Of a stretch of 64,000 nt of DNA, positions 25,201-61,400 are shown piece by piece. Position numbers and translations under genes: made by a program. Source of the DNA: Siphonodentalium dalli. Its lineage: Eukaryota > Mollusca > Scaphopoda > Gadilida > Siphonodentaliidae. Positions within the stretch are counted from its first letter, which is position 1; each line of letters opens with the position of its first letter. The stretch covers positions 174,901,164 to 174,965,163 of the forward strand of contig CP136066.1 in NCBI GenBank assembly GCA_032622095.1, read 5' to 3'. Below the pieces are notes generated by a model that worked only from the letters and a program-made list of their open reading frames with translations, was not told the origin of the DNA and searched no databases.

Positions 25201-27640
25201 AGTATAAGAAGATTTGCAAAAGTTTGGGCTCCTTAGTGGGTTTTAGGGGTATGGAGACAGCCCAACACCCACAGCACCCATGACAATTCAAGTTAAATTG
25301 GTATATTTAACTTGAATTGGGCCATATGACCCATTATATGTATCTACTTCCAACACTTTTGTTGTTTGTGGATAGGTATGCATCTATGCAAATGGTTTGC
25401 ACAAAGTTTGGGCTCCTCAGTGGGTTTTAAGGGTATTGAGACAGCCCAACACCCACAGCACCCATGATAAAACCATACAGCACCCGTGCCTATGAAAACA
25501 TATTTCTGAGTCAGCCATCTCTCAGACTATACCCATTCTGTAAATGATTCCACATTTCACTCTAGAATATATAGAGGCAATGGGAAAAAAATATTTGGGC
25601 ACCTGAATGGCATTTTGGGCTCTATTCAGGGGGGATATTTGGTTTTTTTAATGGTTAAATTGGTATATTTAACTGGAATTGGGACCTGTAAAGGTATATA
25701 CTTCTAGGTCTCCTAGTGATTTTGGAAATATCTGCATCAGTATAAGAAGATTTGCAAAAGTTTGGGCTCCTTAATGGGTTTTAAGGGTATGGAGACAGCC
25801 CAACACCCACAGCACCCATGACAATTCAAGTTAAATTGGTATATTTAACTTGAATTGGGCCATATGACCCATTATATGTATCTACTTCCAACACTTTTGT
25901 TGTTTGTGGATAGGTATGCATCTATGCAAATGGTTGCACAAAGTTTGGGCTCCTCAGTGGGTTTTAAGGGTATTGAGACAGCCCAACACCCACAGCACCC
26001 ATGATAAAACCATACAGCACCCGTGCCTATGAAAACATATTTCTGAGTCAGCCATCTCTCAGACTATACCCATTCTGTAAATGATTCCATATTTCACTCT
26101 AGAATATATAGAGGCAATGGGGAAAAAATATTTGGGCACCTGAATGGGATTTTGGGCTCTATTCAGGGGGGATATTTGGTTTTTTTAATGGTTAAATTGG
26201 TATATTTAACTGGAATTGAGTCCTGTAATGGTATATACTTCTAGGTCTCCTAGTGTTTTTGGAAATATCTGCATCAGTATAAGAAGATTTGCAAAAGTTT
26301 GGGCTCCTTAGTGGGTTTTAAGGGTATGGAGACAGCCCAACACCCACAGCACCCATGACAATTCAAGTTAAATTGGTATATTTAACTTGAATTGGGCCAT
26401 ATGACCCATTATATGTATCTACTTCCAACACTTTTGTTGTTTGTGGATAGGTATGCATCTATGCAAATGGTTTGCACAAAGTTTGGGCTCCTCAGTGGGT
26501 TTTAAGGGTATTGAGACAGCCCAACACCCACAGCACCCATGATAAAACCATACAGCACCCGTGCCTATGAAAACATATTTCTGAGTCAGCCATCTCTCAG
26601 ACTATACCCATTCTGTAAATGATTCCACATTTCACTCTAGAATATATAGAGGCAATAGGAAAAAAATATTTGGGCACCTGAATGGGATTTTGGGCTCTAT
26701 TCAGGGGGGATATTTGGTTTGTTTATGATGGTTAAATTGGTATATTTAACTGGAATTGGGTCATGTAAAGGTATATACTTCTAGGTCTCCTAGTGTTTTT
26801 GGAAATATCTGCATCAGTATAAGAAGATTTGCAAACGTTTGGGCTCCTTAGTGGGTTTTAAGGGTATGGAGACAGCCCAACACCCACAGCACCCATGACA
26901 ATTCAAGTTAAATTGGTATATTTAACTTGAATTGGGCCATATGACCCATTATATGTATCTACTTCCAACACTTTTGTTGTTTGTGGATAGGTATGCATCT
27001 ATGCAAATAGTTTGCGCAAAGTTTGGGCTCCTCGGTGGGTTTTAAGGGTATGGAGACTGCCCAACACCCACAACACCCATGATAAAACCATACAGCACCC
27101 GTGCCTATGAAAACATTTCTGAGTCAGCCATCTCTCAGACTATACCCATTCTGAAAAGGATTCCACAGTTCACTTTAGAATATATAGAGGCAATGGGAAA
27201 AAATTATTTGGGCATCTGAATGGGATTTTGGGCTTTGGTCAGGGGGAGGGGAATATTTGGGTTTTTTAATGGTCAAATTGAATTGAGCCCTGTGACCCAT
27301 TATAGGTATCTACTTCTATGTCTCTTACTAGTAGTGTTTTTGGAAAGATGTGCATCAGTATAAGAAGGTTTGCAAAAGTTTGGGCACCTGGGAGTGATTT
27401 AATGGTGAGCAGGTGGCACAACACCAGTCGTAATGAATTTCGAAGTACAATTGCTAGTCGCGCTCGTACCGTGCGCAACTATGGGAGCAAATGTACGCTA
27501 AGTTTACTGAGACTGGCACAACACCAACAGCACCCATGATAAATCATACAGCACCCTTGTCTTTAAAATCATATTTGGGCTCAGGTGAAGGACAAAATAT
27601 GTTTTTTAATATTAATGTCGGTATATTTAACTTGAATTGG
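19240..27640 (+). repeat. 538-bp satellite array 1 (plus orientation), about 15 units
   Basis: GTTTGGGCTCCTTAGTGGG-type landmarks recur at 19,842; 20,384; 20,921; 21,459; 21,997; 22,535; 23,072; 23,609; 24,147; 24,684; 25,222; 25,760; 26,297; 26,837; 27,377, a period of 537-542 bp. Each unit has a short half and a long half that begin with the same 70 or so bases (TTTGGGCTCC to CACAGCACCCATGA). Private variants repeat every third unit over 23.6-26.8 kb (TTAATGGG at 24,154 and 25,767; GATTCCATATTT at 24,470 and 26,085), giving a 1,613-bp higher-order repeat. End units are more diverged and resemble array 2. No gene lies inside. Confidence 0.97.
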
Positions 27641-31379: not shown

Positions 31380-34300
31380 ATCTACCGTTTTTCATCGCAA
31401 CTTATCCTCGCGAAAATAGGTTCATATTGGGCATACATATTAACATATGTTTCAATGGACTTAATTGATTCGGAAATAAGCCATTAGTGAGTTTATACCC
31501 GTTATTTAGTTGAATGAAGCGAGCCGCAGTTAAAACACATTATAAAGAGCGTGAATCTGGTATGTCGTGTCGCAACATATCCTCCCTCAAATAGGCACAT
31601 AATCGGCCTATAATGTGAAATAGGTACATTTTATTGTGAAATAAGCAGATAATAGATCATATCCGTCATTTCGTTTTATGGCGCGGCCACATTGAAAACA
31701 CATGCTATAAAGAACATACACATGAAAACCGTGAGTTGGCTTATTTGTGTCATTTTCTGCACACAATCTGATTACAATCGACTCATTAGCAGTCGATAAT
31801 GTGACTAAAATTGTCTCATTTTCAGCACATTATCGACTTAAATTTATGAGATTATAAGCATATTATCTACCTAAAAATGTTTATGTATAAGCAGATAATC
31901 TGCGGGTTTTCGGGAGAACAGGCTGCATGTCGATAAACAAGTTTAGGTTGTTAAATAATGACAATGGGAGCTTAATTCGCTCATTAAAATAAGCCCGTTT
32001 CGCAGCGTTATGTGCTTATTTTTACGAGAACAGGATGAAACACATCGTCGTGCAAATAGGTTCAAATTGGACCTACATGTAGCTATTCGCATAGGTTGAT
32101 ATTTGAAATAATTTGATTATGAAATAACTCCATAGTGAGCTTAAATCGTTATTCCGTTATGGCCGCAGTGAAAACATTATAAAGATCGTGAAATTTGTAA
32201 GTCGTGTCGATGAAAAGAGGCAGATTAAATCATTTCAATTTGGGCTTGATATGTATGGAAATAACCCCATATTGTACTGTTTTATTTATAAAAACAGTGT
32301 GTTAGATCCATATTGAGCGTATATTGTGGCAAAATAATTCCAATATCAGCTTATATCGCGCATTAAAATATGTCCGTTTTGTACTTATTTTCATGAGAAC
32401 AGCATGACAAGTCTTGAGTTGTTTAATCGTGTTCTCGTGAAATAAGCACAATACGGGTTTTCCTCATATTGAAATAACCCATATACATGTACATGTAAGG
32501 CTGTTTTAATAACTAGCGTTTAGGCCTTATGGAGCGTATTTCAGTTTTCAAATAATGTCAACATGCAGACTGTTCTCGTGAAAATAAGCACATAAACGCC
32601 ATGTTATTATGAACTAAATATTGCCATTATTAACCGCAGTATACGATATGGACAGAAAATGCGGGTTTTAAGAGTCTAACATGGGACTATTTACATACGA
32701 AATATGCCCATATTGGCACTATTTAATCTATCTACCTATTCTCATCGAGATAACTTACTAGATTCACGCTCTTTAGAAGGTATTTTCACTGTGGCCTGCG
32801 CCATTCTACGGAATAACTGGTATACGCTCACGTGGGCTTATTTCAGAATAAAATAAGTCCAATATGAACTGTGTGAATATTTAGGTCCAATATAAACCTG
32901 AGGATATGTTGAGATGAAAAAAAGTAGATTAAATAATACCAATATGGGCTTACATGGAAATAGTCCAACATTTGACTGCTTTAAAAATCGCGTTTAGGTT
33001 CAATAATGGCAGTATGAGCTTAATTCGCTCATTAAAATAAGCCCGTTATGAGCTTATTTTTACGAGAACAAGCTGCATATTGTCATTATTTGATTATTTG
33101 ATTATTATAACAGCCCTATATGGGATATTTCAATATGCGATAAGAACATCTTATGATTATTTTTGCAATTTGTGTTGTGGAATACAACACAAATAAACCA
33201 ACTCAAGACTGTTCTCGTGAAAATAGGCACATAATAATATTATATAAGCCCGTATTGTCGCCAATAGTCCCGATTCCAGAAGTAAATATTTACAATTGAG
33301 CGTAGTTCAGACGATGATTTCTATGGAGAGGTACGGTCGATTTACTTGACATAGCGCCTGAATGCTAACTTATCAGTTTCACATACCCGTACAAGTCCAT
33401 AATATGTCTTTAAAGTGCGTACATCTGATAAGCTGTGGGTTGGCTTAGTTGTGTCATTGTCCGCTCATAATCTGCTTAGAATTGTTCCATTATGAGGCGA
33501 TAATGTGACTAATTTTGTATAATTTTCAGCACATTATCGACTCAAAATGAGAGCGTTCATAAGCAGATTATCTACCTAGAATATTTACTTTTTATATAAG
33601 CAGATAATGTGCGGGAATTTGGGGAACAGGCTGTTTAAAACGGTACAATATGGGACTATTTACATAAGAAATAAGCCCATATTGGCATTATTTTATCTAC
33701 CTTAGTTTATCACTTACTTACCAAAGCTACCCTAATTGTATTGTTTTTACTGAAATAAACCCATATCAGTATTATTAATCTAGCTTTTTTCATCGACACA
33801 ACCTACCAGATTCAAGCTCTTTATAGTCAATGCTGCCCTCGCCATTCAACCGAATAATGGCTATAAGCTTACTGTGGACTTATATCAGAATCAAAAGAAC
33901 CTATGTGAATACTTAAAGGTCAAATATGAACCTATTTACATGAGGATATGTTGCGATGAAAACAAATTAGATTTAATAATACCAACATGGGACTAGTTCG
34001 ATAGAACAGTCTGATATTGTCTGTTTAAAAAGCCGCGTTTATAGGTCCATATATATAGCGTACATGTATACATATTAAGTTAAATTATACCTCTGTATGA
34101 GCTTATTTCGCTCATTAAAATAAGTCCTGTTTTGTGTTTATTTTCACGAAAACAGACTGCAAACTGCCATTATTTGAAAACTAAATAAGCTTCATATGGG
34201 CCTAAACGCTGGTTATTATAACAGCCCTATATAGATATTTCAATATGCGATAAGCTCGTCATGCTTATTTTAGCAATTCGTGTTGTGGCACAACACAAAT

Positions 34301-36522: not shown

Positions 36523-36597
36523 GTCTCGACCAATCCAGAGTGTCGTCTCATTGGCGGAGGCTTGTGGTTGGTTGGATTCTTAGTCAATATTGTTAGG

Positions 36598-38209: not shown

Positions 38210-38264
38210 AACCAACCACAAGCCTCCGCCAATGAAAGACGACATTCTGGATTGGTCGAGACAA

Positions 38265-38628: not shown

Positions 38629-38663
38629 AACTGAAGAGGGGGTGGCGGTTCCAGGCCGCCGTA

Positions 38664-39014
38664 GAAATCGAAGTAGCGTCCGCGTTCGATGCCCAAGGTG
38701 TGGCAACTTATTCTTAATTTTGTCAGGGATTCACGCTATTTTGGGACGGAAATGACGTTGATATATATTTCCAAAGAAGTCATCGTTTTGAATGTTCTAT
38801 ACGTTCTAAGTTTGTTCCTTGGATGATCACGTCGATTGCTATTTTTGAGAAGTTTGGTGCGAATATTATCATTAAATATTTGTTTCTGTATTGAGTTATC
38901 GAAGAAGTCATTAATACCGTGACTTGGGGACATGGATGTGACTAATTGTTGACATTGTGACAGCGACCTGCTCGATGAATCCAGATTAGATTCAAATACA
39001 TGTAGTTGTATGCA
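38664..39014 (-). mobile_element. LINE 3' fragment, 5' part (split by the foldback element)
   Basis: The minus-strand frame from 39,014 contains HPRNKLRTYRTFKTM and EIYINVISVPK, a stop, then LTKLRISCHTLGIERGRYFD, the region of CR1/L2 ORF2 just before the C-terminal finger. It continues at 36,183 after the foldback element is removed. Truncated at its 5' side within family F. Confidence 0.85.
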
Positions 39015-41497: not shown

Positions 41498-42551
41498 TGC
41501 ACTAGAATGCACCCATCACACATTCAGTATGGCATGTTTTGTGATATCTTGCCAACAGCAGTTTGAACCACGGGTGCTGGGCCCTCTTTTGAGAGATCGA
41601 TAGAGAATCTAGATATCAAATTTCAGTTCATCCATCGCTGAAATATTTGTGTGTACGGACAGAATATCTCTGTTATCTCCAGTTGATCTATTACACTAAT
41701 TATGGTCTTAGTAATGACGTAAGAGTTGTTTGACATATATATAGAACAATATAGACATCGCTCATATGAAGGGTGTGAATACGATTGGTTGCCGCTGATG
41801 CTATATAGTATATACCAATTGGGTTACATTACTAGTTTGACTAGAATGCTTTGTGTATGTCATTGCACTTCAGCGGCAAAAAACGTCAAAGTCAATTCCG
41901 ACACAATTAAATAAAAGACACGCGATCATTGGTTAGTCTTTGATTATCAATGTGTCAATGTGAACATGCCCTTATAGCGACTGATCTACGGTCTTCGGGA
42001 ACATATCATCAAAATGCCAATTGCTTTGAGAATGAGAAAGCTTGTTTTCCCAGTTAATTAATAAGGCGCTTTAATAATCCATGTTTCAACATATTTTTCA
42101 GTACAATTTTGTCTAGAACCATGCGCTCGATCGTTTGGCCGGACATGGTTTATATGCACCTGCGTCTTTCGGAAATGTTTTGAACGTCGAAGAAAGTTTC
42201 CAGAAATTTGTTCGCACATCATTTTCTATGCGAGAAAAAAAAAACGATTCCGCACGCATCTTTTAGACTCGATCTCAAATAATTTTCCGAGTTTCAAAGA
42301 AAGCAATCTTTCAATTTTGTTCTTTTATGAACGATTTATTACCAAAATAAAACGAGATAACAATGCAAATTTAGTATAAATGTGGATTTAAATTACAATT
42401 GGTGCCATCATTTCATATTAGCGCATGTGCATTCTTTACATTCTGTACTTCCGGTATGACGTAACATATTCGTGGAAGGACAGACAAATAAACAGATAAA
42501 CAGAGATCCTGACCGAAAACATTGCTTGCGCCCAGCATAGACTGGCGCAAG
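41498..42551. mobile_element. 1.05-kb insertion in family F ending in a hairpin (Helentron-like candidate)
   Basis: Family F reads AACACATT on the left and TAAAGAGCGTGA on the right, normally contiguous. The insert's right end is a hairpin, CTTGCGCC (42,525-42,532) and GGCGCAAG (42,544-42,551), directly at the boundary. Insertion next to T with a terminal 3' hairpin recalls Helentrons, but there is no CTRR. No coding frame is supported. Confidence 0.4.
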
Positions 42552-42599
42552 TAAAGAGCGTGATATGTCCTGTCACAAGCTCCATGAATTCCGTTCCCA

Positions 42600-43385
42600 G
42601 TTCCCAGTTCCCCTAAAATTGCACCTTTCGTTACTAAATCGGATGCGTAGCCAGAGTCATGGTGGCCACCCGGGAATCCTTGTATTTTCGTGCGGTGCCA
42701 CCCAGCTGGCATCTATAGGAAAGGGACGCGACCATGCAGCCCCTTCCAAATTTTCCAAAATCGGGCTGAAGTCGTGCATGGGGTGTCAATATAGCACTTT
42801 TCGTTACTAAATCGGCTGCGTAGCCAGAGTCATGGTGGCCACCCGGGAATCCTTGTAGTTTCGTGCGGTGCCACCCAGCGGGGATCTATAGGAAAGGGAC
42901 GCGACCATGCAGCCCCTTCCAAATTTTCTAAAATCGGGCTGAAGTCGTGCATGGGGTGTCAAAATAGCACTTTTAGTTACTAAATCGGCTGCGTAGACAG
43001 TCATGATGGCCACACGGGAATCCTTGTATTTTCGTGCGGTGCCACCCAGTTGTCATCTATAGGACAGGGACGCGACCATATAGCCCCTTCCAATGTTTCG
43101 AAGATTGGGCTAAAGTCGTGCATGGAGCTCAAAATCGCACTTTTTGTTACTAAATCGGCTACGTAGCCAGAACCATGGCGACCACCCGGGAATCCTTGTA
43201 TTTTTGTGCGGTGCCACCCAGCGCGCATCTATAGGACAGGGACGCGGCCATATAGCCCTTCCACTTTTTTGAAAATTGGGCTGAAGTCGTGCATGCATGG
43301 AGCTAAAAATTGCATTTTTTTGTTGCTAAATCGGCTGCGTAGCCAGAACCATGGCGGCCACCCTGGAATTCCTTGCATTTTATGG
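42600..43385 (-). repeat. 172-bp satellite, left arm (minus orientation)
   Basis: GTGCCACCCA recurs at 42,695, 42,867, 43,040 and 43,212 (172-173 bp). The orientation flips at about 43,385, in the word CCTTGCATTTTATGGG. Short open frames across the units are a by-product. Confidence 0.92.
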
Positions 43386-45344
43386 GACCTAGTTTGTGAT
43401 GTTTCGATGCACTATTGGTGGCACAAGAAGATTCCAAAAGGATAGACTCGTGGCAGCTACGGTTATGCCTACGCAGGCGATTTAGCAATGAGAAATGATT
43501 TTTTTCATTATTTTGACCCCACGCACGACTTACGCCCAATTTTTGAACAACTGGACAGGCTTATGTGACTATGTTTGTGATTTTTAGATGGACTAGTGGT
43601 GGCATAAGAAGCATCCACAAGGATACCCTCGTGGCTGCTATGTGTATGCCTACGCAGGCGATTTAGCAACGAAAAATATCTCTTTTTTCATTATTTTGAC
43701 CCCTCGCACGACTTACGCCCAATTTTTGACGAGCTGGACAGGCGTATGTGAACTAGTTTGTGATTTATAGATGGACTAATTGTGGTATAAGAAGAATCCA
43801 CAAGGGTAGCCCAGTGGCTGCTATGGTTATGCCAACGCAGGCGATTTAGTAACATATCCTCGCACGAATACGCACAAAACCGACCTAAATTTTAATTAGG
43901 TACTTAAAGTGATTATTTGGTTATGAAATAAGCAGATAATGGAGTCATAGTCGTCATTTCGTGTTTTGGCGCGTGCCACAGTGAAAATACATGCTAATGA
44001 GCGTACACCTGAAAAGTTTGGTTATTATTTTTGTCATTGTCAGCACATAATTTACTTAGAATCGCCTCTATATGAGTCGATAATTTGACTAATAGGAACT
44101 CATTTTCAGCACATTGTCGACTCAAAATGAGGCGATTCTAAGCAGATTATCTACCTAAATTATTGTTTCTTCTCAGCAAATAATGTGCTGGTTTTCAGGA
44201 TTAAGCAACGAAAAATGTCATATTTTTACCCCACGCACGATTTACGCCCAACTGTTGAACAGCTGGACAAGTTTATATGACATATTTTGTGATTTCTAGA
44301 TGGACTTGTAGCGGCACAAGAAGAATCCACAAGGATAGCCCCGTAGCGTCTATGGTTATGCCTACGCAGGCGATTTAGCAACGAAAAATTATTTTTTTTT
44401 CATTATTTTAACCCCACGCACGACTTACGCTCAATTTGTGAACAGCTGGACGGGAGCATGTTAATTGATTTGTGATTTCTAGATGGACTGTTGGTGGCAG
44501 AAGAAAAATCCACACGGATAGTCTCGTGACTGCTATGGTTATGCCTACGCAGGCGATTTAGCAACGAAAAATGAACTTTGTTTCATTATTTTGACCCCAC
44601 GCACGACTTACGCCCAATTTTTGAACAGCTGGACAGGCGTATGTGAACCAGTTTGTGATCTCTCGATGGACTAGTGGTGGCATAAGAAGAATCCACAACG
44701 AGAGCCCCGTGGCTGCTATGGATATGCCTACGCAGACGATTTGCAACGAAAAATGACATTTTTTTCATTATTTTCATCCGATGCACGACTTACACCCAAT
44801 TTATTAACAGCTGGACAGGCATATGTAAACCAGTTTGTGATTTCTAGATGGACTAGTGGTGGACAAAGAAGAATCCACAAGGATAGCCCAGTGGCTGCTA
44901 TGGTTATGCCAACGCAGGCGATTTAGCAACATATCCTCGCACAAATACGCACATATTCGACCTATAATTCCAATTAGGTACATAAAGTGATTATTTGATT
45001 CTGAAATAAGCAGATAATGGAGTCATAGTCATCATTTTGTGTTAAGTCGCGAGCCACAGTGAAAACACATGTTAATGAGCGTACAGCTGAACAGTAGTGG
45101 GTTGGCTTATTTCTTGTCATTGTTCGCACATAATCTGCTTAGAATCGCCTCTATATGAGTCGATATTGTGACTAATAGGGTCTCCTTTTCAGTACATTAT
45201 CGACTAACGAAAAATGTCCTATTTTGGACAAGTTTATGTGACCTAGTTTGTGATTTTTAGATGTAATAGTGGTGGCACAAGAAGATCCCGCAAGGATAGC
45301 CACGTGTCTGCTACGGTTATGCCTACGCGGGCGATTTAGCAACG
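43386..45344 (+). repeat. about 180-bp satellite, centre of the palindromic element
   Basis: GCAGGCGATTTAGCAACG-type landmarks at 43,478, 43,658, 43,837, 44,369, 44,553, 44,735, 44,917 and 45,330, period 179-184 bp except where family F pieces interrupt (43,850-44,205 and 44,930-45,205). Shares CGATTTAG, GCACGACTT and GCCCAATTTT words with the 172-bp satellite, so the two are related. Confidence 0.88.
43850..44205 (+). repeat. family F/H piece inside the 180-bp satellite
   Basis: ATATCCTCGCACGAATACGC to TTTTCAGG with a full hairpin module. It is flanked by GATTTAGTAAC and GATTAAGCAAC, a possible imperfect target duplication. A related, truncated piece occupies the same satellite position at 44,930-45,205. 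Confidence 0.7.
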
Positions 45345-46215
45345 AAAAGTGCGATTTGGAGCTCCATGCACGACTTCAACCCAATTTTCGAAAAATTGAA
45401 AAGGCCTATAAGGTCTCGTCCCTGTCCAATAGATGTCTACTGGGTGGCACCGCACGAAAATACAAGGATTCCCGAGTGGCCGCCATGGTTCTGTCTACGC
45501 AGCTGATTTAGTAACAAAAAGTTAAAAAAAATTAACTCCATGCACGACTTCAGCCCAATTTTCAAAAAATTGGAAGAGGCTATATGGCCGCGTCCCTGTC
45601 ATAAAGATGCCCGCTGGGTGGCACCGCACGAAAATGAAAGAATTCCCGGGTAGCCGCCATGGTTCTGGCTACGCAGCCGATTTAGTAACAAAGCGTGCTA
45701 TGTTTAGCTACATGCACGACTTCAGCCCAATTTTCGAAAAATTGGAAGGGGCTAGATGGCCGCGTCCCTGTCCAATAGATGCCCGCTGGGTGGCACCGCA
45801 CGAAAATGCAAGGATTCCCGGGTGGCCGCCATGGTTCTGGCTACGCAGCCGATTTAGTAACGAAAAGTGCTATTTTGACACCCCATGCACGCCTTCAGTC
45901 CGATTTTCGAAAATTTGGAAGGGGCTGCATGGTCGCGTCCCTTTTCTATAGATGCCCGCTGGGTGGCACCGCACAAAAATACAAGGATTCCCGGGTGGCC
46001 ACCATGACTCTGGCTACGCAGCCGATTTAGTAACAAAAAGTGCTATTTTGACACCCCATGCACGACTTCAGCCCAATTTTCGAAAATTTGGAAGGGGCTG
46101 CATGGTCGCGTCCCTTTCCTATAGATCCCCGCTGTGTGGCACCGCACGAAAATACAAGGATTCCCGGGTGGTCTCCATGACTCTGGCTACGCAGCCGATT
46201 TAGTAAACGAAAAGT
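45345..46215 (+). repeat. 172-bp satellite, right arm (plus orientation)
   Basis: GGTGGCACCGCACGAAAAT recurs at about 45,443, 45,615, 45,787, 45,959 and a variant at 46,133, period 172 bp. The outermost unit matches the outermost left-arm unit, including the CCTAAAATTGCAC junction. Confidence 0.92.
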
Positions 46216-46276
46216 GCAATTTTAGGAGAATAGGGAACTGGGAACTGGGAACGGAATTCATGGAGCTCGTGTCACA

Positions 46277-47515
46277 ACATATCCTCGCGCAAATACGCAC
46301 ATAATCGGCCCATAATGTGAAATAAGTACATAATATGATTATTTAATTGTAAAATAAGCAGATAATAGATCATATCGTTATCTGGTTCTATGGCGCGGGC
46401 CACATTGAAAACACATGTTAAAGAGCTTACACTTGAAAGTCGTAAGTTGGCTTATTTGTGTCATTTTCCGCACACAATCTGTTTACAATCGACTCATTGT
46501 CAGTCGATAATGTGACTATGCTCTCATTTTTAGCACATTATCGACTCAAAATGAGGCGATTCTAAGCAGATTATCTACCTAAAAAAATATTTATTATAAG
46601 CAGATAATGTGCCCGTTTTTTTTTGGGAACAGGCTGTTTAAAACAGTACAATATGGGACTATTTACATACGAAATAAGCCCATATTGGCATTATTTAATC
46701 TAACCTTTTTCCATCAACACGACTTATCAAAGCTACGCTCTTTGTACGGTGTTCTCACTGTGGCTCGCGCCAATCAACGGAATAAGGGTTTAAGCTTAAT
46801 ATGTGCTTATTTCAGAATCAGATTATGGGCGTATTTTCTCAAGAACAGGCTGAAAAATAACACGAATAAACCAACACAAGACTTTCCATGTACATTTCAT
46901 CCTCGTGAAAATAGGCACATAACGGTTTTATTTTAATGTGCGAAATAAGCTCATATTGGCGTTATTTAATATAAGCTTTATATATGGACCTAAAACGCGG
47001 TTTTTTTAAACAGTCCAATATGGGACTATTTTCGTATTATTATTATTATTAATCTAGCTTTTTTCATCGACATGACCAATATCAGATGCACACTCTTTAT
47101 GTTTTATATATGCGACCCTCGCGATTCAATGGCGTAATGGCTATAAGCTCACTGTGGGCTTATTTCTGAATCAAATAAGTCTATTGAATCATATGTTGAT
47201 ATTTATTTCCACTATGAACCTATTTTTGTGAGGATATGTTACGATCAAAAACGGTAGATTTAATAATACCAATATGGGCTTTTTGCGTCCGGAGATAGTC
47301 CCATATTCGACTGTTTTAAAAACTGAATTTTAAGTCCATATAGAGCGTATATTGTGATTAAATAATACCAATAGGGACTTATTTCGCTCATTAAAATAAG
47401 ACCGTTGCGTGCTTATTTGTATGGAAATCATGGTCCCATATTGGACGTTTATCTCCACACAGAGCCTATATTGATATGAGCTTATTTCGCTCATCAAATG
47501 CAATTTAATAATACC
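46277..47515. repeat. family F palindromic repeat domain, block 3 (right edge)
   Basis: Contains a hairpin module (46,470-46,613) and, at 47,060-47,498, the inverted counterpart of the left edge (30,672-31,480 without its MITE). It abuts satellite array 2 directly. Confidence 0.75.
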
Positions 47516-47519: not shown

Positions 47520-49420
47520 AGACCATGAACAAACAAATATTCACCTCCCCACTGAGACCAAAATCCCTTTCATGTGGCCAAATTGTTTTGTTCAGTGCCT
47601 GCCTATATTCTAAAGTCAAATGTGGAATCATTTTCAGAATGAGTAGAGTCTGAGACTGACCCCAAAATATTATTTCATAATCACAGGTGTTGCATGGTCC
47701 ATTGGAATTTATCATGGGTGCTGCAGGTGTTGGGCCAGCTCCGTGCCCTTCAATCCCAACCAGGAGCTCAAACTTCAGTAAATATTTTATGCAGATGCAG
47801 ATCTATCCATTAACAAATTAATGGGTACTGGGCCCAATTCAAGTTAAAAAATACCCAATCGACTTTAAACACAAATATTCACCTCACCTGAGCCCAAAAT
47901 CCCTTCAACGTGCCCAAACATTAAATGGGTTACTGGGCCCAATTCAAGTTAAAATTATCCATTTGACTATTAAACACAAATATTCACCTCCCCCTCAGCC
48001 CAAAATCCCTTCCAGGTGCCCAAATAATATTTTTTTCGGTGTCTGAGATAACACTGACCCCAAAATATTATTTTATAGGTACCAGTGCCATATGTTTTAT
48101 CATGGGTGGTATGGGTGTTGGACTGATTCCTAAGCCTAAAATACCAATATGGCTATTAAAAACACAAATATTCCTCTCCCCTCGCCCAAATTCCCTTCCA
48201 GGTAACAAAATATTTTCTGTTGATCGCCTGCCTATACTCTAAAGTCATATGTGGAATCATGTTTCATAAATGAGTGTTGTCTGATTGAACACTGACCCCA
48301 AAATATGATTCTATAGGCACAGATGCTGTATGGTTTACCATTGGTGCTGTGGGTGTTGGGCTGGCTCCATACTCTTAAATCCAATACGGGAAATCATTTA
48401 CATAGGTGCTTACCTATTCAATAACACTAAAAGCCCTGGATGTAGATATCAATAATGGCACAATATAAGTTAAATATACCAACTTGACTATTAAAATTCC
48501 TAATATTCCACTCCCCTTGACCAGAGCCCAAAATAACTTCCAGGTGCCAAAATATATCATTTTCAGAATGGGCATAGTCTGAGACCCAGAAAAATTATTT
48601 TATAGGCACGGGTGCTGTATGGTTTCATCATGGGTGCCGTGGGTGTTGGGCTGTCACCACACCCTTAAAACCCACTGAGGAGCCCAAACTTTTGCACATC
48701 TTCTTAAACAGATGAATATATTTCCAAAAACACTAAAAGTACTGGAAGTTGATATCTATAATGGGTCACAATTCAAGTTAAATATACCAACTTAACTATT
48801 AAAAAACCCAAATATTCCCCTCCCCCTGACCAGAGCCCAAAATACCATTCAGGTGCCCAAAGAATTGTTTTACCATTGCCTACATATATTCTGAAGTAAA
48901 CTGGATTAATTTTCAGAATAGGTATAGTCTGAGAGAACACTGACCCAGAAATATGTTTTCATAGCCGCTGTATGGTTTCATCATGGGTGCCGTGGGTGTT
49001 GGGCTGTCACCATCTCCTAAAAACCCACTGAGGAGCCAAAACTTTTGCACATATTATTATACAGATGAAACACTAAAAGTACAGGAAGTAGAAATCTATA
49101 ATGGGTCACAATTCACGTTAAATATACCAATTTAACTTTTAAAATACCCAAATATTCACCCCCCTGACCAAAGCCCAAAATCCCATTCATATGCTCAAAT
49201 AAAAAAATTTCTCATTGCCTATATATATTCTAAAAGTCAACTGTAGAGTAATTTTCAGAATGGGTATAGTCTGAGAGATCACCGATTCAGAAATATGTTT
49301 TCATAGGCACGGGTGCTGTATGGTTTTTTTCATGGGAGCTGTGTGTGTTGGGCTGTCTCCATAACTTTAACACCCAACGTGGAGCCCAAACTTTGTGCAA
49401 ACCATTTGTATAGATGCATA
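47520..49420 (-). repeat. satellite array 2, diverged edge monomers
   Basis: Satellite-like but strongly diverged copies with irregular spacing: the TTGCCTATATATATTCTAAA landmark lies at 48,228, 48,877 and 49,215. The 338-bp interval corresponds to the long half alone. Divergence falls towards the homogeneous array. Confidence 0.85.
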
Positions 49421-52400
49421 GTTGCATACCTATCCAAAAACTATAAAAGTGCTGGAAATAGATACCTATAATGGGTCATATGACCCAATTCAAGTTAAAT
49501 ATACCAATTTAACTTGAATTGTCATGGGTGCTGTGGGTGTTGGGCTGTCTCCATACCCTTAAAACCCACTAAGGAGCCCAAACTTTTGCATATCTTCTTA
49601 TAATGATGCAGATCTTTCCAAAAACACTAGGAGACCTAGAAGTATATACCTATAATGGGTCACAGGACCCAATTCCAGTTAAATATACCAATTTAACCAT
49701 TAAAAAACCCAAATATTCCCCCCTGACCAGAGCCCAAAATGCCATTCAGGTGCCCAAATCATCTTTTCCCATTGCCTCTATATATTCTAAAGTGAAATGT
49801 GGAATCATTTTCAGAATGGGTATAGTCTGAGAGATGGCTGACTCAGAAATATGTTTTCACAGGCACGGGTGCTGTATGGTTTTATCATGGGTGCTGTGGG
49901 TGTTGGGCTGTTTCCATACCCTTAAAACCCACCGAGGAGCCCAAACTTTGTGCAAACTATTTGCATAGATGCATACCTATCCACAAACAACAAAAGTGCT
50001 GGAAGTAGATACATATAATGGGTCATATGGCCCAATTCAAGTTAAATATACCAATTTAACTTGAATTGTCATGGGTGCTGGGCTGTCTCCATACCCTTAA
50101 AACCCACTAAGGAGCCCAAACTTTTGCATATCTTCTTATAATGATGCAGATCTTTCCAAAAACACTAGGAGACCTAGAAGTATATACCTATAATGGGTCA
50201 CAGGACCCAATTCCAGTTAAATATACCAATTTAACCATTAAAAAAAACAAATATTCCCCCCTGACCAGAGCCCAAAATGCCATTCAGGTGCCCAAATCAT
50301 CTTTTCCCATTGCCTCTATATATTCTAAAGTGAAATGTGGAATCATTTTCAGAATGGGTATAGTCTGAGAGATGGCTGACTCAGAAATATGTTTTCATAG
50401 GCACGGGTGCTGTATGGTTTTATCATGGGTGCTGTGGGTGTTGGGCTGTTTCCATACCCTTAAAACCCACCGAGGAGCCCAAACTTTGTGCAAACTATTT
50501 GCATAGATGCATACCTATCCACAAACAACAAAAGTGCTGGAAGTAGATACATATAATGGGTCATATGGCCCAATTCAAGTTAAATATACCAATTTAACTT
50601 GAATTGTCATGGGTGCTGTGGGTGTTGGGCTGTCTCCATACCCTTAAAACCCACTAAGGAGCCCAAACTTTTGCATATCTTCTTATAATGATGCAGATCT
50701 TTCCAAAAACACTAGGAGACCTAGAAGTATATACCTATAATGGGTCACAGGACCCAATTCCAGTTAAATATACCAATTTAACCATTAAAAAACCCAAATA
50801 TTCCCCCCTGACCAGAGCCCAAAATGCCATTCAGGTGCCCAAATCATCTTTTCCCATTGCCTCTATATATTCTAAAGTGAAATGTGGAATCATTTTCAGA
50901 ATGGGTATAGTCTGAGAGATGGCTGACTCAGAAATATGTTTTCACAGGCACGGGTGCTGTATGGTTTTATCATGGGTGCTGTGGGTGTTGGGCTGTTTCC
51001 ATACCCTTAAAACCCACCGAGGAGCCCAAACTTTGTGCAAACTATTTGCATAGATGCATACCTATCCACAAACAACAAAAGTGCTGGAAGTAGATACATA
51101 TAATGGGTCATATGGCCCAATTCAAGTTAAATATACCAATTTAACTTGAATTGTCATGGGTGCTGGGCTGTCTCCATACCCTTAAAACCCACTAAGGAGC
51201 CCAAACTTTTGCATATCTTCTTATAATGATGCAGATCTTTCCAAAAACACTAGGAGACCTAGAAGTATATACCTATAATGGGTCACAGGACCCAATTCCA
51301 GTTAAATATACCAATTTAACCATTAAAAAAAACAAATATTCCCCCCTGACCAGAGCCCAAAATGCCATTCAGGTGCCCAAATCATCTTTTCCCATTGCCT
51401 CTATATATTCTAAAGTGAAATGTGGAATCATTTTCAGAATGGGTATAGTCTGAGAGATGGCTGACTCAGAAATATGTTTTCATAGGCACGGGTGCTGTAT
51501 GGTTTTATCATGGGTGCTGTGGGTGTTGGGCTGTTTCCATACCCTTAAAACCCACCGAGGAGCCCAAACTTTGTGCAAACTATTTGCATAGATGCATACC
51601 TATCCACAAACAACAAAAGTGCTGGAAGTAGATACATATAATGGGTCATATGGCCCAATTCAAGTTAAATATACCAATTTAACTTGAATTGTCATGGGTG
51701 CTGTGGGTGTTGGGCTGTCTCCATACCCTTAAAACCCACTAAGGAGCCCAAACTTTTGCATATCTTCTTATAATGATGCAGATCTTTCCAAAAACACTAG
51801 GAGACCTAGAAGTATATACCTATAATGGGTCACAGGACCCAATTCCAGTTAAATATACCAATTTAACCATTAAAAAACCCAAATATTCCCCCCTGACCAG
51901 AGCCCAAAATGCCATTCAGGTGCCCAAATCATCTTTTCCCATTGCCTTTATATATTCTAAAGTGAAATGTGGAATCATTTTCAGAATGGGTATAGTCTGA
52001 GAGATGGCTGACTCAGAAATATGTTTTCACAGGCACGGGTGCTGTATGGTTTTATCATGGGTGCTGTGGGTGTTGGGCTGTTTCCATACCCTTAAAACCC
52101 ACCGAGGAGCCCAAACTTTGTGCAAACTATTTGCATAGATGCATACCTATCCACAAACAACAAAAGTGCTGGAAGTAGATACATATAATGGGTCATATGG
52201 CCCAATTCAAGTTAAATATACCAATTTAACTTGAATTGTCATGGGTGCTGGGCTGTCTCCATACCCTTAAAACCCACTAAGGAGCCCAAACTTTTGCATA
52301 TCTTCTTATAATGATGCAGATCTTTCCAAAAACACTAGGAGACCTAGAAGTATATACCTATAATGGGTCACAGGACCCAATTCCAGTTAAATATACCAAT

Positions 52401-55400
52401 TTAACCATTAAAAAAACCAAATATTCCCCCCTGACCAGAGCCCAAAATGCCATTCAGGTGCCCAAATCATCTTTTCCCATTGCCTCTATATATTCTAAAG
52501 TGAAATGTGGAATCATTTTCAGAATGGGTATAGTCTGAGAGATGGCTGACTCAGAAATATGTTTTCATAGGCACGGGTGCTGTATGGTTTTATCATGGGT
52601 GCTGTGGGTGTTGGGCTGTTTCCATACCCTTAAAACCCACCGAGGAGCCCAAACTTTGTGCAAACTATTTGCATAGATGCATACCTATCCACAAACAACA
52701 AAAGTGCTGGAAGTAGATACATATAATGGGTCATATGGCCCAATTCAAGTTAAATATACCAATTTAACTTGAATTGTCATGGGTGCTGGGCTGTCTCCAT
52801 ACCCTTAAAACCCACTAAGGAGCCCAAACTTTGGCATATCTTCTTATAATGATGCAGATCTTTCCAAAAACACTAGGAGACCTAGAAGTATATACCTATA
52901 ATGGGTCACAGGACCCAATTCCAGTTAAATATACCAATTTAACCATTAAAAAACCCAAATATTCCCCCCTGACCAGAGCCCAAAATGCCATTCAGGTGCC
53001 CAAATCATCTTTTCCCATTGCCTCTATATATTCTAAAGTGAAATGTGGAATCATTTTCAGAATGGGTATAGTCTGAGAGATGGCTGACTCAGAAATATGT
53101 TTTCACAGGCACGGGTGCTGTATGGTTTTATCATGGGTGCTGTGGGTGTTGGGCTGTTTCCATACCCTTAAAACCCACCGAGGAGCCCAAACTTTGTGCA
53201 AACTATTTGCATAGATGCATACCTATCCACAAACAACAAAAGTGCTGGAAGTAGATACATATAATGGGTCATATGGCCCAATTCAAGTTAAATATACCAA
53301 TTTAACTTGAATTGTCATGGGTGCTGGGCTGTCTCCATACCCTTAAAACACACTAAGGAGCCCAAACTTTGGCATATCTTCTTATAATGATGCAGATCTT
53401 TCCAAAAACACTAGGAGACCTAGAAGTATATACCTATAATGGGTCACAGGACCCAATTCCAGTTAAATATACCAATTTAACCATTAAAAAACCCAAATAT
53501 TCCCCCCTGACCAGAGCCCAAAATGCCATTCAGGTGCCCAAATCATTTTTTCCCATTGCGTCTATATATTCTAAAGTGAAATGTGGAATCATTTTCAGAA
53601 TGGGTATAGTCTGAGAGATGGCTGACTCAGAAATATGTTTTCACAGGCACGGGTGCTGTATGGTTTTATCATGGGTGCTGTGGGTGTTGGGCTGTTTCCA
53701 TACCCTTAAAACCCACCGAGGAGCCCAAACTTTGTGCAAACTATTTGCATAGATGCATACCTATCCACAAACAACAAAAGTGCTGGAAGTAGATACATAT
53801 AATGGGTCATATGGCCCAATTCAAGTTAAATATACCAATTTAACTTGAATTGTCATGGGTGCTGGGCTGTCTCCATACCCTTAAAACCCACTAAGGAACC
53901 CAAACTTTTGCATATCTTCTTATAATGATGCAGATCTTTCCAAAAACACTAGGAGACCTAGAAGTATATACCTATAATGGGTCACAGGACCCAATTCCAG
54001 TTAAATATACCAATTTAACCATTAAAAAAACCAAATATTCCCCCCTGACCAGAGCCCAAAATGCCATTCAGGTGCCCAAATAATATTTTCCCATTGCCTC
54101 TATATATTCTAAAGTGAAATGTGGAATCATTTTCAGAATGGGTATAGTCTGAGAGATGGCTGACTCAGAAATATGTTTTCATAGGCACGGGTGCTGTATG
54201 GTTTTATCATGGGTGCTGTGGGTGTTGGGCTGTTTCCATACCCTTAAAACCCACCGAGGAGCCCAAACTTTGTGCAAACTATTTGCATAGATGCATACCT
54301 ATCCACAAACAACAAAAGTGCTGGAAGTAGATACATATAATGGGTCATATGGCCCAATTCAAGTTAAATATACCAATTTAACTTGAATTGTCATGGGTGC
54401 TGGGCTGTCTCCATACCCTTAAAACACACTAAGGAGCCCAAACTTTGGCATATCTTCTTATAATGATGCAGATCTTTCCAAAAACACTAGGAGACCTAGA
54501 AGTATATACCTATAATGGGTCACAGGACCCAATTCCAGTTAAATATACCAATTTAACCATTAAAAAAACCAAATATTCCCCCCTGACCAGAGCCCAAAAT
54601 GCCATTCAGGTGCCCAAATCATCTTTTCCCATTGCCTCTATATATTCTAAAGTGAAATGTGGAATCATTTTCAGAATGGGTATAATCTGAGAGATGGCTG
54701 ACTCAGAAATATGTTTTCATAGGCACGGGTGCTGTATGGTTTTATCATGGGTGCTGTGGGTGTTGGGCTGTTTCCATACCCTTAAAACCCACCGAGGAGC
54801 CCAAACTTTGTGCAAACTATTTGCATAGATGCATACCTATCCACAAACAACAAAAGTGCTGGAAGTAGATACATATAATGGGTCATATGGCCCAATTCAA
54901 GTTAAATATACCAATTTAACTTGAATTGTCATGGGTGCTGGGCTGTCTCCATACCCTTAAAACCCACTAAGGAGCCCAAACTTTTGCATATCTTCTTATA
55001 ATGATGCAGATCTTTCCAAAAACACTAGGAGACCTAGAAGTATATACCTATAATGGGTCACAGGACCCAATTCCAGTTAAATATACCAATTTAACCATTA
55101 AAAAAACCAAATATTCCCCCCTGACCAGAGCCCAAAATGCCATTCAGGTGCCCAAATCATCTTTTCCCATTGCCTCTATATATTCTAAAGTGAAATGTGG
55201 AATCATTTTCAGAATGGGTATAGTCTGAGAGATGGCTGACTCAGAAATATGTTTTCATAGGCACGGGTGCTGTATGGTTTTATCATGGGTGCTGTGGGTG
55301 TTGGGCTGTTTCCATACCCTTAAAACCCACCGAGGAGCCCAAACTTTGTGCAAACTATTTGCATAGATGCATACCTATCCACAAACAACAAAAGTGCTGG

Positions 55401-58400
55401 AAGTAGATACATATAATGGGTCATATGGCCCAATTCAAGTTAAATATACCAATTTAACTTGAATTGTCATGGGTGCTGGGCTGTCTCCATACCCTTAAAA
55501 CCCACTAAGGAACCCAAACTTTTGCATATCTTCTTATAATGATGCAGATCTTTCCAAAAACACTAGGAGACCTAGAAGTATATACCTATAATGGGTCACA
55601 GGACCCAATTCCAGTTAAATATACCAATTTAACCATTAAAAAAACCAAATATTCCCCCCTGACCAGAGCCCAAAATGCCATTCAGGTGCCCAAATAATAT
55701 TTTCCCATTGCCTCTATATATTCTAAAGTGAAATGTGGAATCATTTTCAGAATGGGTATAGTCTGAGAGATGGCTGACTCAGAAATATGTTTTCATAGGC
55801 ACGGGTGCTGTATGGTTTTATCATGGGTGCTGTGGGTGTTGGGCTGTTTCCATACCCTTAAAACCCACCGAGGAGCCCAAACTTTGTGCAAACTATTTGC
55901 ATAGATGCATACCTATCCACAAACAACAAAAGTGCTGGAAGTAGATACATATAATGGGTCATATGGCCCAATTCAAGTTAAATATACCAATTTAACTTGA
56001 ATTGTCATGGGTGCTGGGCTGTCTCCATACCCTTAAAACACACTAAGGAGCCCAAACTTTGGCATATCTTCTTATAATGATGCAGATCTTTCCAAAAACA
56101 CTAGGAGACCTAGAAGTATATACCTATAATGGGTCACAGGACCCAATTCCAGTTAAATATACCAATTTAACCATTAAAAAAACCAAATATTCCCCCCTGA
56201 CCAGAGCCCAAAATGCCATTCAGGTGCCCAAATCATCTTTTCCCATTGCCTCTATATATTCTAAAGTGAAATGTGGAATCATTTTCAGAATGGGTATAAT
56301 CTGAGAGATGGCTGACTCAGAAATATGTTTTCATAGGCACGGGTGCTGTATGGTTTTATCATGGGTGCTGTGGGTGTTGGGCTGTTTCCATACCCTTAAA
56401 ACCCACCGAGGAGCCCAAACTTTGTGCAAACTATTTGCATAGATGCATACCTATCCACAAACAACAAAAGTGCTGGAAGTAGATACATATAATGGGTCAT
56501 ATGGCCCAATTCAAGTTAAATATACCAATTTAACTTGAATTGTCATGGGTGCTGGGCTGTCTCCATACCCTTAAAACCCACTAAGGAGCCCAAACTTTTG
56601 CATATCTTCTTATAATGATGCAGATCTTTCCAAAAACACTAGGAGACCTAGAAGTATATACCTATAATGGGTCACAGGACCCAATTCCAGTTAAATATAC
56701 CAATTTAACCATTACAAAAACCAAATATTCCCCCCTGACCAGAGCCCAAAATGCCATTCAGGTGCCCAAATCATCTTTTCCCATTGCCTCTATATATTCT
56801 AAAGTGAAATGTGGAATCATTTTCAGAATGGGTATAGTCTGAGAGATTGCTGACTCAGAAATATGTTTTCATAGGCACGGGTGCTGTATGGTTTTATCGT
56901 GGGTGCTGTGGGTGTTGGGCTGTTTCCATACCCTTAAAACCCACCGAGGAGCCCAAACTTTGTGCAAACTATTTGCATAGATGCATACCTATCCATAAAC
57001 AACAAAAGTGCTGGAAGTAGATACATATAATGGGTCATATGGCCCAATTCAAGTTAAATATACCAATTTAACTTGAATTGTCATGGGTGCTGGGCTGTCT
57101 CCATACCCTTAAAACCCACTAAGGAGCCCAAACTTTTGCATATCTTCTTATAATTATGCAGATCTTTCCAAAAACACTAGGAGACCTAGAAGTATATACC
57201 TATAATGGGTCACAGGACCCAATTCCAGTTAAATATACCAATTTAATCATTAAAAAAAAAAAAAATATTCCCCCCTGACCAGAGCCCAAAATGCCATTCA
57301 GGTGCCCAAATCATTTTTTCCCATTGCCTCTATATATTCTAAAGTGAAATGTGGAATCATTTTCAGAATGGGTATAGTCTGAGAGATGGCTGACTCAGAA
57401 ATATGTTTTCACAGGCACGGGTGCTGTATGGTTTTATCATGGGTGCTGTGGGTGTTGGGCTGTTTCCATACCCTTAAAACCCACCGAGGAGCCCAAACTT
57501 TGTGCAAACTATTTGCATAGATGCATACCTATCCATAAACAACAAAAGTGCTGGAAGTAGATACATATAATGGGTCATATGGCCCAATTCAAGTTAAATA
57601 TACCAATTTAACTTGAATTGTCATGGGTGCTGGGCTGTCTCCATACCCTTAAAACCCACTAAGGAACCCAAACTTTTGCATATCTTCTTATAATGATGCA
57701 GATCTTTCCAAAAACACTAGGAGCCCTAGAAGTATATACCTATAATGGGTCACAGGACCCAATTCCAGTTAAATATACCAATTTAACCATTAAAAAAAAC
57801 AAATATTCCCCCCTGACCAGAGCCCAAAATGCCATTCAGGTGCCCAAATAATATTTTCCCATTGCCTCTATATATTCTAAAGTGAAATGTGGAATCATTT
57901 TCAGAATGGGTATAGTCTGAGAGATGGCTGACTCAGAAATATGTTTTCATAGGCACGGGTGCTGTATGGTTTTATCATGGGTGCTGTGGGTGTTGGGCTG
58001 TTTCCATACCCTTAAAACCCACCGAGGAGCCCAAACTTTGTGCAAACTATTTGCATAGATGCATACCTATCCACAAACAACAAAAGTGCTGGAAGTAGAT
58101 ACATATAATGGGTCATATGGCCCAATTCAAGTTAAATATACCAATTTAACTTGAATTGTCATGGGTGCTGGGCTGTCTCCATACCCTTAAAACCCACTAA
58201 GGAACCCAAACTTTTGCATATCTTCTTATAATGATGCAGATCTTTCCAAAAACACTAGGAGACCTAGAAGTATATACCTATAATGGGTCACAGGACCCAA
58301 TTCCAGTTAAATATACCAATTTAACCATTAAAAAAACCAAATATTCCCCCCTGACCAGAGCCCAAAATGCCATTCAGGTGCCCAAATAATATTTTCCCAT

Positions 58401-61400
58401 TGCCTCTATATATTCTAAAGTGAAATGTGGAATCATTTTCAGAATGGGTATAGTCTGAGAGATGGCTGACTCAGAAATATGTTTTCATAGGCACGGGTGC
58501 TGTATGGTTTTATCATGGGTGCTGTGGGTGTTGGGCTGTTTCCATACCCTTAAAACCCACCGAGGAGCCCAAACTTTGTGCAAACTATTTGCATAGATGC
58601 ATACCTATCCACAAACAACAAAAGTGCTGGAAGTAGATACATATAATGGGTCATATGGCCCAATTCAAGTTAAATATACCAATTTAACTTGAATTGTCAT
58701 GGGTGCTGGGCTGTCTCCATACCCTTAAAACACACTAAGGAGCCCAAACTTTGGCATATCTTCTTATAATGATGCAGATCTTTCCAAAAACACTAGGAGA
58801 CCTAGAAGTATATACCTATAATGGGTCACAGGACCCAATTCCAGTTAAATATACCAATTTAACCATTAAAAAACCCAAATATTCCCCCCTGACCAGAGCC
58901 CAAAATGCCATTCAGGTGCCCAAATCATTTTTTCCCATTGCCTCTATATATTCTAAAGTGAAATGTGGAATCATTTTCAGAATGGGTATAGTCTGAGAGA
59001 TGGCTGACTCAGAAATATGTTTTCACAGGCACGGGTGCTGTATGGTTTTATCATGGGTGCTGTGGGTGTTGGGCTGTTTCCATACCCTTAAAACCCACCG
59101 AGGAGCCCAAACTTTGTGCAAACTATTTGCATAGATGCATACCTATCCACAAACAACAAAAGTGCTGGAAGTAGATACATATAATGGGTCATATGGCCCA
59201 ATTCAAGTTAAATATACCAATTTAACTTGAATTGTCATGGGTGCTGGGCTGTCTCCATACCCTTAAAACCCACTAAGGAACCCAAACTTTTGCATATCTT
59301 CTTATAATGATGCAGATCTTTCCAAAAACACTAGGAGACCTAGAAGTATATACCTATAATGGGTCACAGGACCCAATTCCAGTTAAATATACCAATTTAA
59401 CCATTAAAAAAACCAAATATTCCCCCCTGACCAGAGCCCAAAATGCCATTCAGGTGCCCAAATAATATTTTCCCATTGCCTCTATATATTCTAAAGTGAA
59501 ATGTGGAATCATTTTCAGAATGGGTATAGTCTGAGAGATGGCTGACTCAGAAATATGTTTTCATAGGCACGGGTGCTGTATGGTTTTATCATGGGTGCTG
59601 TGGGTGTTGGGCTGTTTCCATACCCTTAAAACCCACCGAGGAGCCCAAACTTTGTGCAAACTATTTGCATAGATGCATACCTATCCACAAACAACAAAAG
59701 TGCTGGAAGTAGATACATATAATGGGTCATATGGCCCAATTCAAGTTAAATATACCAATTTAACTTGAATTGTCATGGGTGCTGGGCTGTCTCCATACCC
59801 TTAAAACACACTAAGGAGCCCAAACTTTGGCATATCTTCTTATAATGATGCAGATCTTTCCAAAAACACTAGGAGACCTAGAAGTATATACCTATAATGG
59901 GTCACAGGACCCAATTCCAGTTAAATATACCAATTTAACCATTAAAAAACCCAAATATTCCCCCCTGACCAGAGCCCAAAATGCCATTCAGGTGCCCAAA
60001 TCATTTTTTCCCATTGCCTCTATATATTCTAAAGTGAAATGTGGAATCATTTTCAGAATGGGTATAGTCTGAGAGATGGCTGACTCAGAAATATGTTTTC
60101 ACAGGCACGGGTGCTGTATGGTTTTATCATGGGTGCTGTGGGTGTTGGGCTGTTTCCATACCCTTAAAACCCACCGAGGAGCCCAAACTTTGTGCAAACT
60201 ATTTGCATAGATGCATACCTATCCACAAACAACAAAAGTGCTGGAAGTAGATACATATAATGGGTCATATGGCCCAATTCAAGTTAAATATACCAATTTA
60301 ACTTGAATTGTCATGGGTGCTGGGCTGTCTCCATACCCTTAAAACCCACTAAGGAACCCAAACTTTTGCATATCTTCTTATAATGATGCAGATCTTTCCA
60401 AAAACACTAGGAGACCTAGAAGTATATACCTATAATGGGTCACAGGACCCAATTCCAGTTAAATATACCAATTTAACCATTAAAAAAACCAAATATTCCC
60501 CCCTGACCAGAGCCCAAAATGCCATTCAGGTGCCCAAATAATATTTTCCCATTGCCTCTATATATTCTAAAGTGAAATGTGGAATCATTTTCAGAATGGG
60601 TATAGTCTGAGAGATGGCTGACTCAGAAATATGTTTTCATAGGCACGGGTGCTGTATGGTTTTATCATGGGTGCTGTGGGTGTTGGGCTGTTTCCATACC
60701 CTTAAAACCCACCGAGGAGCCCAAACTTTGTGCAAACTATTTGCATAGATGCATACCTATCCACAAACAACAAAAGTGCTGGAAGTAGATACATATAATG
60801 GGTCATATGGCCCAATTCAAGTTAAATATACCAATTTAACTTGAATTGTCATGGGTGCTGGGCTGTCTCCATACCCTTAAAACACACTAAGGAGCCCAAA
60901 CTTTGGCATATCTTCTTATAATGATGCAGATCTTTCCAAAAACACTAGGAGACCTAGAAGTATATACCTATAATGGGTCACAGGACCCAATTCCAGTTAA
61001 ATATACCAATTTAACCATTAAAAAACCCAAATATTCCCCCCTGACCAGAGCCCAAAATGCCATTCAGGTGCCCAAATCATTTTTTCCCATTGCCTCTATA
61101 TATTCTAAAGTGAAATGTGGAATCATTTTCAGAATGGGTATAGTCTGAGAGATGGCTGACTCAGAAATATGTTTTCACAGGCACGGGTGCTGTATGGTTT
61201 TATCATGGGTGCTGTGGGTGTTGGGCTGTTTCCATACCCTTAAAACCCACCGAGGAGCCCAAACTTTGTGCAAACTATTTGCATAGATGCATACCTATCC
61301 ACAAACAACAAAAGTGCTGGAAGTAGATACATATAATGGGTCATATGGCCCAATTCAAGTTAAATATACCAATTTAACTTGAATTGTCATGGGTGCTGGG

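Follow-up and report, generated by a model that had tools for sequence, protein, structure and literature searches.

A probable non-autonomous foldback transposon family with mirrored 172-bp satellite arrays in the scaphopod Siphonodentalium dalli

We examined a 64,000-nucleotide stretch of the Siphonodentalium dalli genome (contig CP136066.1, positions 174,901,164 to 174,965,163 of the forward strand; this whole stretch is called the window below), and in particular a 3690-bp element at its positions 42578-46267, whose two arms consist of a 172-bp satellite (sat172) in opposite orientations. We conclude, with a probability of roughly 0.87, that this element belongs to a family of non-autonomous foldback-type DNA transposons, and that the copy in the window represents one insertion which was amplified together with the unit surrounding it. 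An initial annotation of the window had proposed that the satellite array moves as one DNA transposon. For the family this proposal was supported: copies of up to 27.5 kb lie at unrelated sites, and 10 of the 14 copies outside one shared site are bordered by target duplications within one mismatch of 9 bp. It did not hold for the window copy itself, since 18 of the 32 pairs of tips that we read share one insertion and spread as passengers of a host unit.

Results

Structure of the window element

The boundaries originally given for the element were exact to the base, and the clean inverted termini described with them are 35-bp exact inverted repeats. The features of the element and its insertion site are as follows (basis in brackets):

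42562..42568, plus strand: GATATGT, left half of the palindrome that encloses the duplicated 9 bp (sequence)
42569..42577, plus strand: left copy of the 9-bp target duplication, CCTGTCACA (spacing control, flank comparison)
42578..46267, no strand: whole foldback element, 3690 bp (tips, register alignment, duplication)
42578..42612, plus strand: left terminal inverted repeat, 35 bp exact (inverted-repeat comparison; its 20-mer occurs 199 + 185 times in the genome)
42630..43381, minus strand: left arm, sat172, four full units plus a partial one (satellite unit alignment)
43382..43850, plus strand: centre, array a of a second satellite, sat183 (satellite unit alignment)
43851..44195, plus strand: F module 1 (match to flanking F repeat)
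44199..44926, plus strand: centre, sat183 array b (satellite unit alignment)
44928..45205, plus strand: F module 2 (match to flanking F repeat)
45290..46223, plus strand: right arm, sat172, five full units plus partial ones (satellite unit alignment)
46233..46267, minus strand: right terminal inverted repeat, 35 bp exact (inverted-repeat comparison)
46268..46276, plus strand: right copy of the 9-bp target duplication, CGTGTCACA (spacing control, flank comparison)
46277..46283, plus strand: ACATATC, right half of the palindrome and start of the flanking F repeat (sequence)
31543..31629, plus strand: paralogous empty site, an F repeat without the element (alignment across the joint)

The two opposed arms align in register (42578-43381 against 46267-45457) at 92.3% identity over 796 ungapped columns, which bears out the mirrored satellite reported earlier. 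This alignment scored 1086 bits, versus 872 bits after a slide of one unit, and the identity, 98% at the tip, fell to 88-91% further inside. Overall, the element contains nine full units of about 172 bp, four on the minus strand in the left arm and five on the plus strand in the right arm. Its centre holds five full units of about 183 bp, which run in the same orientation as the right arm and are about 60% identical to sat172; the orientation switches at 43381/43382. The initial annotation had rightly placed a related satellite in the centre, but gave its unit as 180 bp and overlooked the two F modules, both of which sit inside a direct repeat some 740 bp long, offset by 1.08 kb. The G+C content is 50% in the arms versus 36% in the flanks. 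In the family to which the element belongs, the tip AGCTCCATGAATTCCGTTCC is followed by one to four copies of the 7-bp motif CAGTTCC. The 20-bp tip occurs in the window in two copies only, even when three mismatches are allowed (0.01 expected by chance).

Independent copies at other sites

The search of the genome for inverted tip pairs that had been suggested with the first description was carried out: the exact 20-bp tip was found 199 + 185 times in the 2.23-Gb genome (9 contigs), and the reversed pattern used as a control gave 0. Among 100 listed tips there were 25 adjacent convergent pairs at most 8 kb apart and nine wider pairs. We read 32 pairs, namely all 25 of the former, six of the nine wider ones (setting aside C1:95.27M, C2:113.9M and C2:203.0M) and the window copy. 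The scoring of duplications covers these read pairs; 282 unlisted tips (besides the two of the window) and the partnerless tips lie outside it.

Fourteen of the 32 read pairs lie outside the shared site: L016, L017, L019, L021, L027, L030, L032, L038 and six large copies (C1:31.87M, C1:53.99M, C1:76.8M, C1:114.1M, C1:221.5M and C3:89.8M). The 9-bp duplication was perfect in eight of them, each time with a different sequence, and had one mismatch in two more; random 9-mers from the window matched within one mismatch in 95 of 200,000 trials. L019 interrupts a retrotransposon frame that encodes reverse transcriptase. Without the element and one duplication copy, this frame is open across the joined flanks and matches RVT_1 (E 5.6e-7; 29.9 bits, barely over the cut-off of 29.6). 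The ten copies with near-perfect duplications, together with L019, are taken as independent insertions.

Mirrored sat172 arrays were present in all 14 of these copies, whose sizes range from 595 to 27,481 bp. Hardly anything besides sat172 lies between the tips of L016, L017, L019, L021, L027 and L032. L038, C1:31.87M, C1:53.99M, C1:114.1M, C1:221.5M and C3:89.8M contain an additional middle, which measures between 0.7 and about 5 kb and in C3:89.8M is split into pieces of 2.9 and 4.6 kb. As in the window copy, sat183 and F modules are present in C1:76.8M and L030. The middle (up to about 5 kb) is common wholly or partly to five of the six large copies, at 93-98% likeness, and is inverted in C1:114.1M relative to the others. 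No recognised genes were found in the middles of the large copies. Across the large and middle-sized copies, the numbers of sat172 matches on the two sides were 90/63, 84/28, 54/17, 36/35, 29/34, 16+3/67, 19/14, 18/17 and 4/36. The largest copy (27,481 bp, 90/63 matches) has the perfect duplication GAAATAATC, and the arrays reach about 15.7 kb per side between intact tips with clean duplications. At the other extreme are L021 with 595 bp and L017 with 598 bp, the latter with 1/2 matches per side.

Elsewhere, the tip had no match in viral contigs. Its single match in other genome contigs, in a bacterial record, compares with about 0.5 expected by chance and had no mirrored partner in the comparison seen. 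One satellite word gave four viral matches, which we judged to be chance (words of only about 20 bp were shared in the comparison seen), and a second satellite word gave none in viral contigs.

A single shared insertion and its host unit

The other 18 read pairs, the window copy among them, occupy one and the same insertion. All 18 have near-identical flanks over 110 bp on either side, except that one flank of L033 diverges after about 80 bp. Their duplications all contain the same mismatch, to which L020 adds another change in its left copy. They also share one interior build with sat183 and F modules, with 4-5 sat172 matches on the left and 3-8 on the right; the interior of L026 is longer by about 2.7 kb. 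The 17 other fetched copies repeat the orientation switch of the window element. Genome-wide, 73 + 57 tips follow a C or T; at the shared site this position is A or G. Given the identical flanks, the same imperfect duplication and the one interior build, the insertion happened once and was then copied within a larger host unit. With 18 of 32 pairs at this insertion, the window copy therefore multiplied as a passenger of the host unit and not by repeated jumping of its own.

The outward extent of the host unit was followed at one of the 17 other loci, C1:24.05 Mb. This locus is colinear with window positions 32529-56279 over 23.6 kb, at 98.4-99.0% identity in three main blocks, and also matches positions 26111-28909 (2.8 kb, 98.5%); the 3.7 kb between the two was unread, and its length fits. 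The host unit there spans at least 30 kb, taking in the inner parts of two arrays of a 538-bp satellite:

19260..27425, plus strand: left 538-bp satellite array of the host unit (array comparison; its inner edge recurs at C1:24.04 Mb)
48981..64000, continuing beyond the window to 83405 in window numbering, minus strand: right 538-bp satellite array of the host unit (array comparison)

This satellite of about 538 bp has a higher-order structure. The two opposed arrays resemble each other at about 92% and are internally mostly 97-98% alike; they bracket a 21.5-kb region containing the F repeats and the window element. Together with the enclosed region, the 538-bp arrays may form a giant mobile or amplified unit. 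At the edges of the F-repeat region there is an inverted repeat of 214 bp (30666-30879 and 47291-47498; 91% alike), and no clear duplication was found at the edges of this pair (30666/47498). Another inverted pair of tandem arrays, 93% alike, lies at 36169-38678, with a 22-bp unit around CCTGATATATCAGG and outer tips of about 50 bp; we considered it as a second foldback and rejected it, as its edges carry no clear target duplication. Many diverged copies of the F repeat are spread over 31397-47420. Five of them begin at an identical AACATATCC junction, mostly next to different neighbours, and this junction looks as if it were the end of an element.

Insertion scar and empty site of the window copy

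The two copies of the target duplication, CCTGTCACA and CGTGTCACA, agree at eight of nine positions, so that the duplication noted at first is present but not exact. Such a match was equalled at 10 of 60,283 positions with the same spacing. The duplicated 9 bp form the exact spacer of the palindrome GATATGT-N9-ACATATC, and a 7-bp palindrome of this spacing was found at 25 of 63,960 control positions. Once the element and one 9-bp copy are removed, the F repeat at 31543-31629 aligns over the joint, fitting the right copy better (score 122 versus 117). On its left side this match is short, with homology over just about 26 bp and an indel of 6 bp. The score of this left side, 32, was reached by 2 of about 20,000 random pieces, and an F-related place on the minus strand near 35,234 scores 31. 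The empty site reported in the initial annotation is a paralogous one.

Did the long arrays travel or grow in place?

We compared the identity of sat172 units within and between loci, using five loci and then two, which had been picked as subfamilies from an earlier unit comparison. In the five related loci (283 units) the identity was 98.13% within loci and 98.03% between them; the gap of 0.10 points is small, although none of 500 label shuffles reached it. For C1:53.99M and L038 (166 units) the values were 98.33% within versus 98.44% between. Adjacent units were not closer than distant ones (98.16 versus 98.27). Growth in place predicts a clearly higher identity within loci, and the near-equal values therefore argue against growth after landing.

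Unit order was compared with shuffled orders in nine arm pairs only. Between loci, the longest exact runs exceeded all 20 unit shuffles in three of six arm pairs, by 6 to 104 bp. We dropped unit order as a sign of joint array movement, since it is weak between loci. Between the two arms of C1:53.99M (L051-L053), the common exact run measured 1635 bp versus a maximum of 589 in 20 shuffles, which suggests exchange from arm to arm within this element; for 31L/31R and L019L/L019R the run was not above the shuffled maximum. Among the copies read, no two look like simple daughters of one long parent.

In an alternative account, short elements would jump, and unequal exchange or replication slippage would later lengthen their satellite arms at the respective sites, so that the arrays themselves do not travel. 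It would fit the wide variation of unit numbers among copies, the scarcity of long unit order common to different loci, the existence of copies of 595-598 bp, and the right arm, which varies even among copies of the shared insertion. It would also fit C1:76.8M and L032, where units of one arm resemble each other more, by up to about 1.5 points, than they resemble those of the nearest other locus. By contrast, the five related loci, the pair C1:53.99M and L038, and the comparison of neighbouring with remote units all speak against it. We regard this account as unlikely, though it keeps real weight, and the movement of already long arrays as likely, judging from the unit identities.

Coding content

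Among eight open reading frames (ORFs) of the window, the sole Pfam match was a reverse transcriptase far from the window element. The ORFs at 2380-8883 resemble pieces of a non-LTR (long terminal repeat) retrotransposon; the one at 8200-8883 matches RVT_1, and the others tested had no Pfam family. Against Rfam, nothing in the window reached the gathering score, and the element has three weak matches far below the cut-off; no known ribozyme family was seen in the window.

Discussion

We picture the history of this family in the following way. A transposase made elsewhere would recognise the tips and act in trans, and the element would insert by cut-and-paste with a 9-bp staggered cut. Much of its body is a single 172-bp satellite, mirrored on the two sides, and the total number of units ranges from about 3 to about 150. 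The arrays would turn over by unequal exchange and would probably already have been long at the time of the jump. As for the window copy, a subtype with sat183 and F modules entered a palindromic site in an F repeat once, and the amplification of the surrounding unit then carried it to other loci.

The assignment to the foldback class follows from several features: tandem repeats inside long terminal inverted repeats, a short target duplication of fixed length at independent sites, and arm lengths and unit numbers that vary between arms and between copies. Mutator target duplications measure 8-11 bp; the 9 bp found here fall in this range, but are not specific to Mutator. Galileo, of the P superfamily, has 7 bp against the 9 bp here, and the duplication of the P element is 8 bp. 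Helitrons and Helentrons make no target duplication, whereas 9-bp duplications are present in this family. L021 and L017 are short and non-coding, with inverted tips and a duplication, and so correspond to miniature inverted-repeat transposable elements (MITEs); the large copies exceed the usual size of these.

Several results weigh against this reading. The longest stop-to-stop frame in the copies read has 177 residues, and a Pfam search with six ORFs from element middles gave sub-threshold matches only, with no transposase, neither of the Mutator type named at first nor of any other. Among the 14 copies outside the shared site, the flank copies of L019 differ by a 2-nt indel, the duplication of C1:114.1M matches at 6 of 9 positions, L027 has no duplication, and the flanks of L030 are inverted and satellite-like. 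Of the 100 listed tips, 32 had no exact partner in that list (one has a partner on C3). The sequence shared by tip and satellite was not significant, its score being reached by 242 of 2000 shuffles; for this reason we also dropped the idea that the satellite holds copies of the tip (a 9-mer, AGCTCCATG, in inner units).

Three other explanations were also considered. The window element could have spread by repeated transposition into F repeats with a preference for the palindromic site. That the duplicated 9 bp coincide with the spacer of a 7-bp palindrome and that 18 of 32 pairs occupy the same site would agree with such a preference. The near-identity of the 110-bp flanks, the single mismatch repeated in all 18 duplications and the homology of about 30 kb at the one followed locus (3.7 kb of it unread) count against it, and none of the 32 read pairs sits in diverged F repeats with perfect duplications of its own; we consider it very improbable. 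A Helentron-type element (HINE) with a satellite-like core, as in oysters, is more improbable still: such elements do carry satellite-like arrays, but Helitrons lack a target duplication (PMC7492417), whereas this family has both 9-bp duplications and terminal inverted repeats. Finally, the element could be an assembly artefact or a chance inverted satellite: inverted repeats are in general prone to misassembly, and the orientation switch had been named from the start as a place where an artefact might hide. An artefact of fold-back reads is unlikely because the arms are only about 92% alike. As the same structure also recurs in 17 other copies elsewhere, and the clean duplications each differ in sequence, the chance that artefact or coincidence explains the element is close to nil.

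If the element is instead a foldback, as we conclude, its nearest described relative is Tetris of Drosophila virilis (PMC4079207). Tetris has tandem repeats of about 220 bp in long inverted arms and a middle without coding capacity, with duplications of 8-10 bp, variable array number, no known transposase and a proposed membership in Mutator (PMC4079207). Three structurally complete copies with duplications are described, with arms of at most 1.7 kb and an outer domain of at most 866 bp; arrays of up to 66 copies are held to have arisen inside the element, and long arrays are read as disrupting it (PMC4079207). By contrast, the arrays of the present family start within about 75 bp of the tip and reach 90 units with intact tips and clean duplications; the likeness is judged by description, not by sequence. 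Galileo subfamily F, of the P superfamily, similarly has tandem repeats of about 210 bp in its terminal inverted repeats, unequal in number between arms, but differs in its 7-bp duplications, its arms of up to about 1.2 kb and its known P-type transposase (PMC3573991). Tm1 (Mutator/Foldback) of root-knot nematodes combines composite inverted repeats containing tandem repeats with mostly 9-bp duplications and MITE-like short forms. On the other hand, it has units of about 14 bp, asymmetric outermost motifs and known copies coding for a Mutator-like transposase (PMC3169594). In the Pacific oyster, Cg_HINE/Helentron elements are, like this family, non-autonomous mobile elements with satellite-like arrays, but are of the rolling-circle type without target duplication (PMC7492417). 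Among the open-licence PMC papers listed in our searches we found no report of foldback elements of this size with long arrays between intact tips and clean duplications. Calling the element unusual, as was done at first, is partly right: foldbacks with tandem repeats of about 210-220 bp in their inverted arms and duplications of 7-10 bp are known from Tetris and Galileo, and Tm1 with its 14-bp repeats is a further example.

It is a long-standing question how satellite DNA arrives at new positions on chromosomes. Tentatively, and at somewhat less than even odds, we propose that whole satellite arrays, 10-27 kb long and in mirrored pairs, move as the body of a foldback element and so seed satellites across chromosomes, and that the window element rides in a larger repeat, which is flanked by the mirrored 538-bp arrays and may be a giant foldback in its own right. 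A direct and countable case is offered by this family, whose tips and 9-bp scar are defined and whose copies contain up to about 150 units. Scar, array length and unit sequence can be recorded for every copy, and, given a second individual or a sister species, the question of travel or growth becomes testable.

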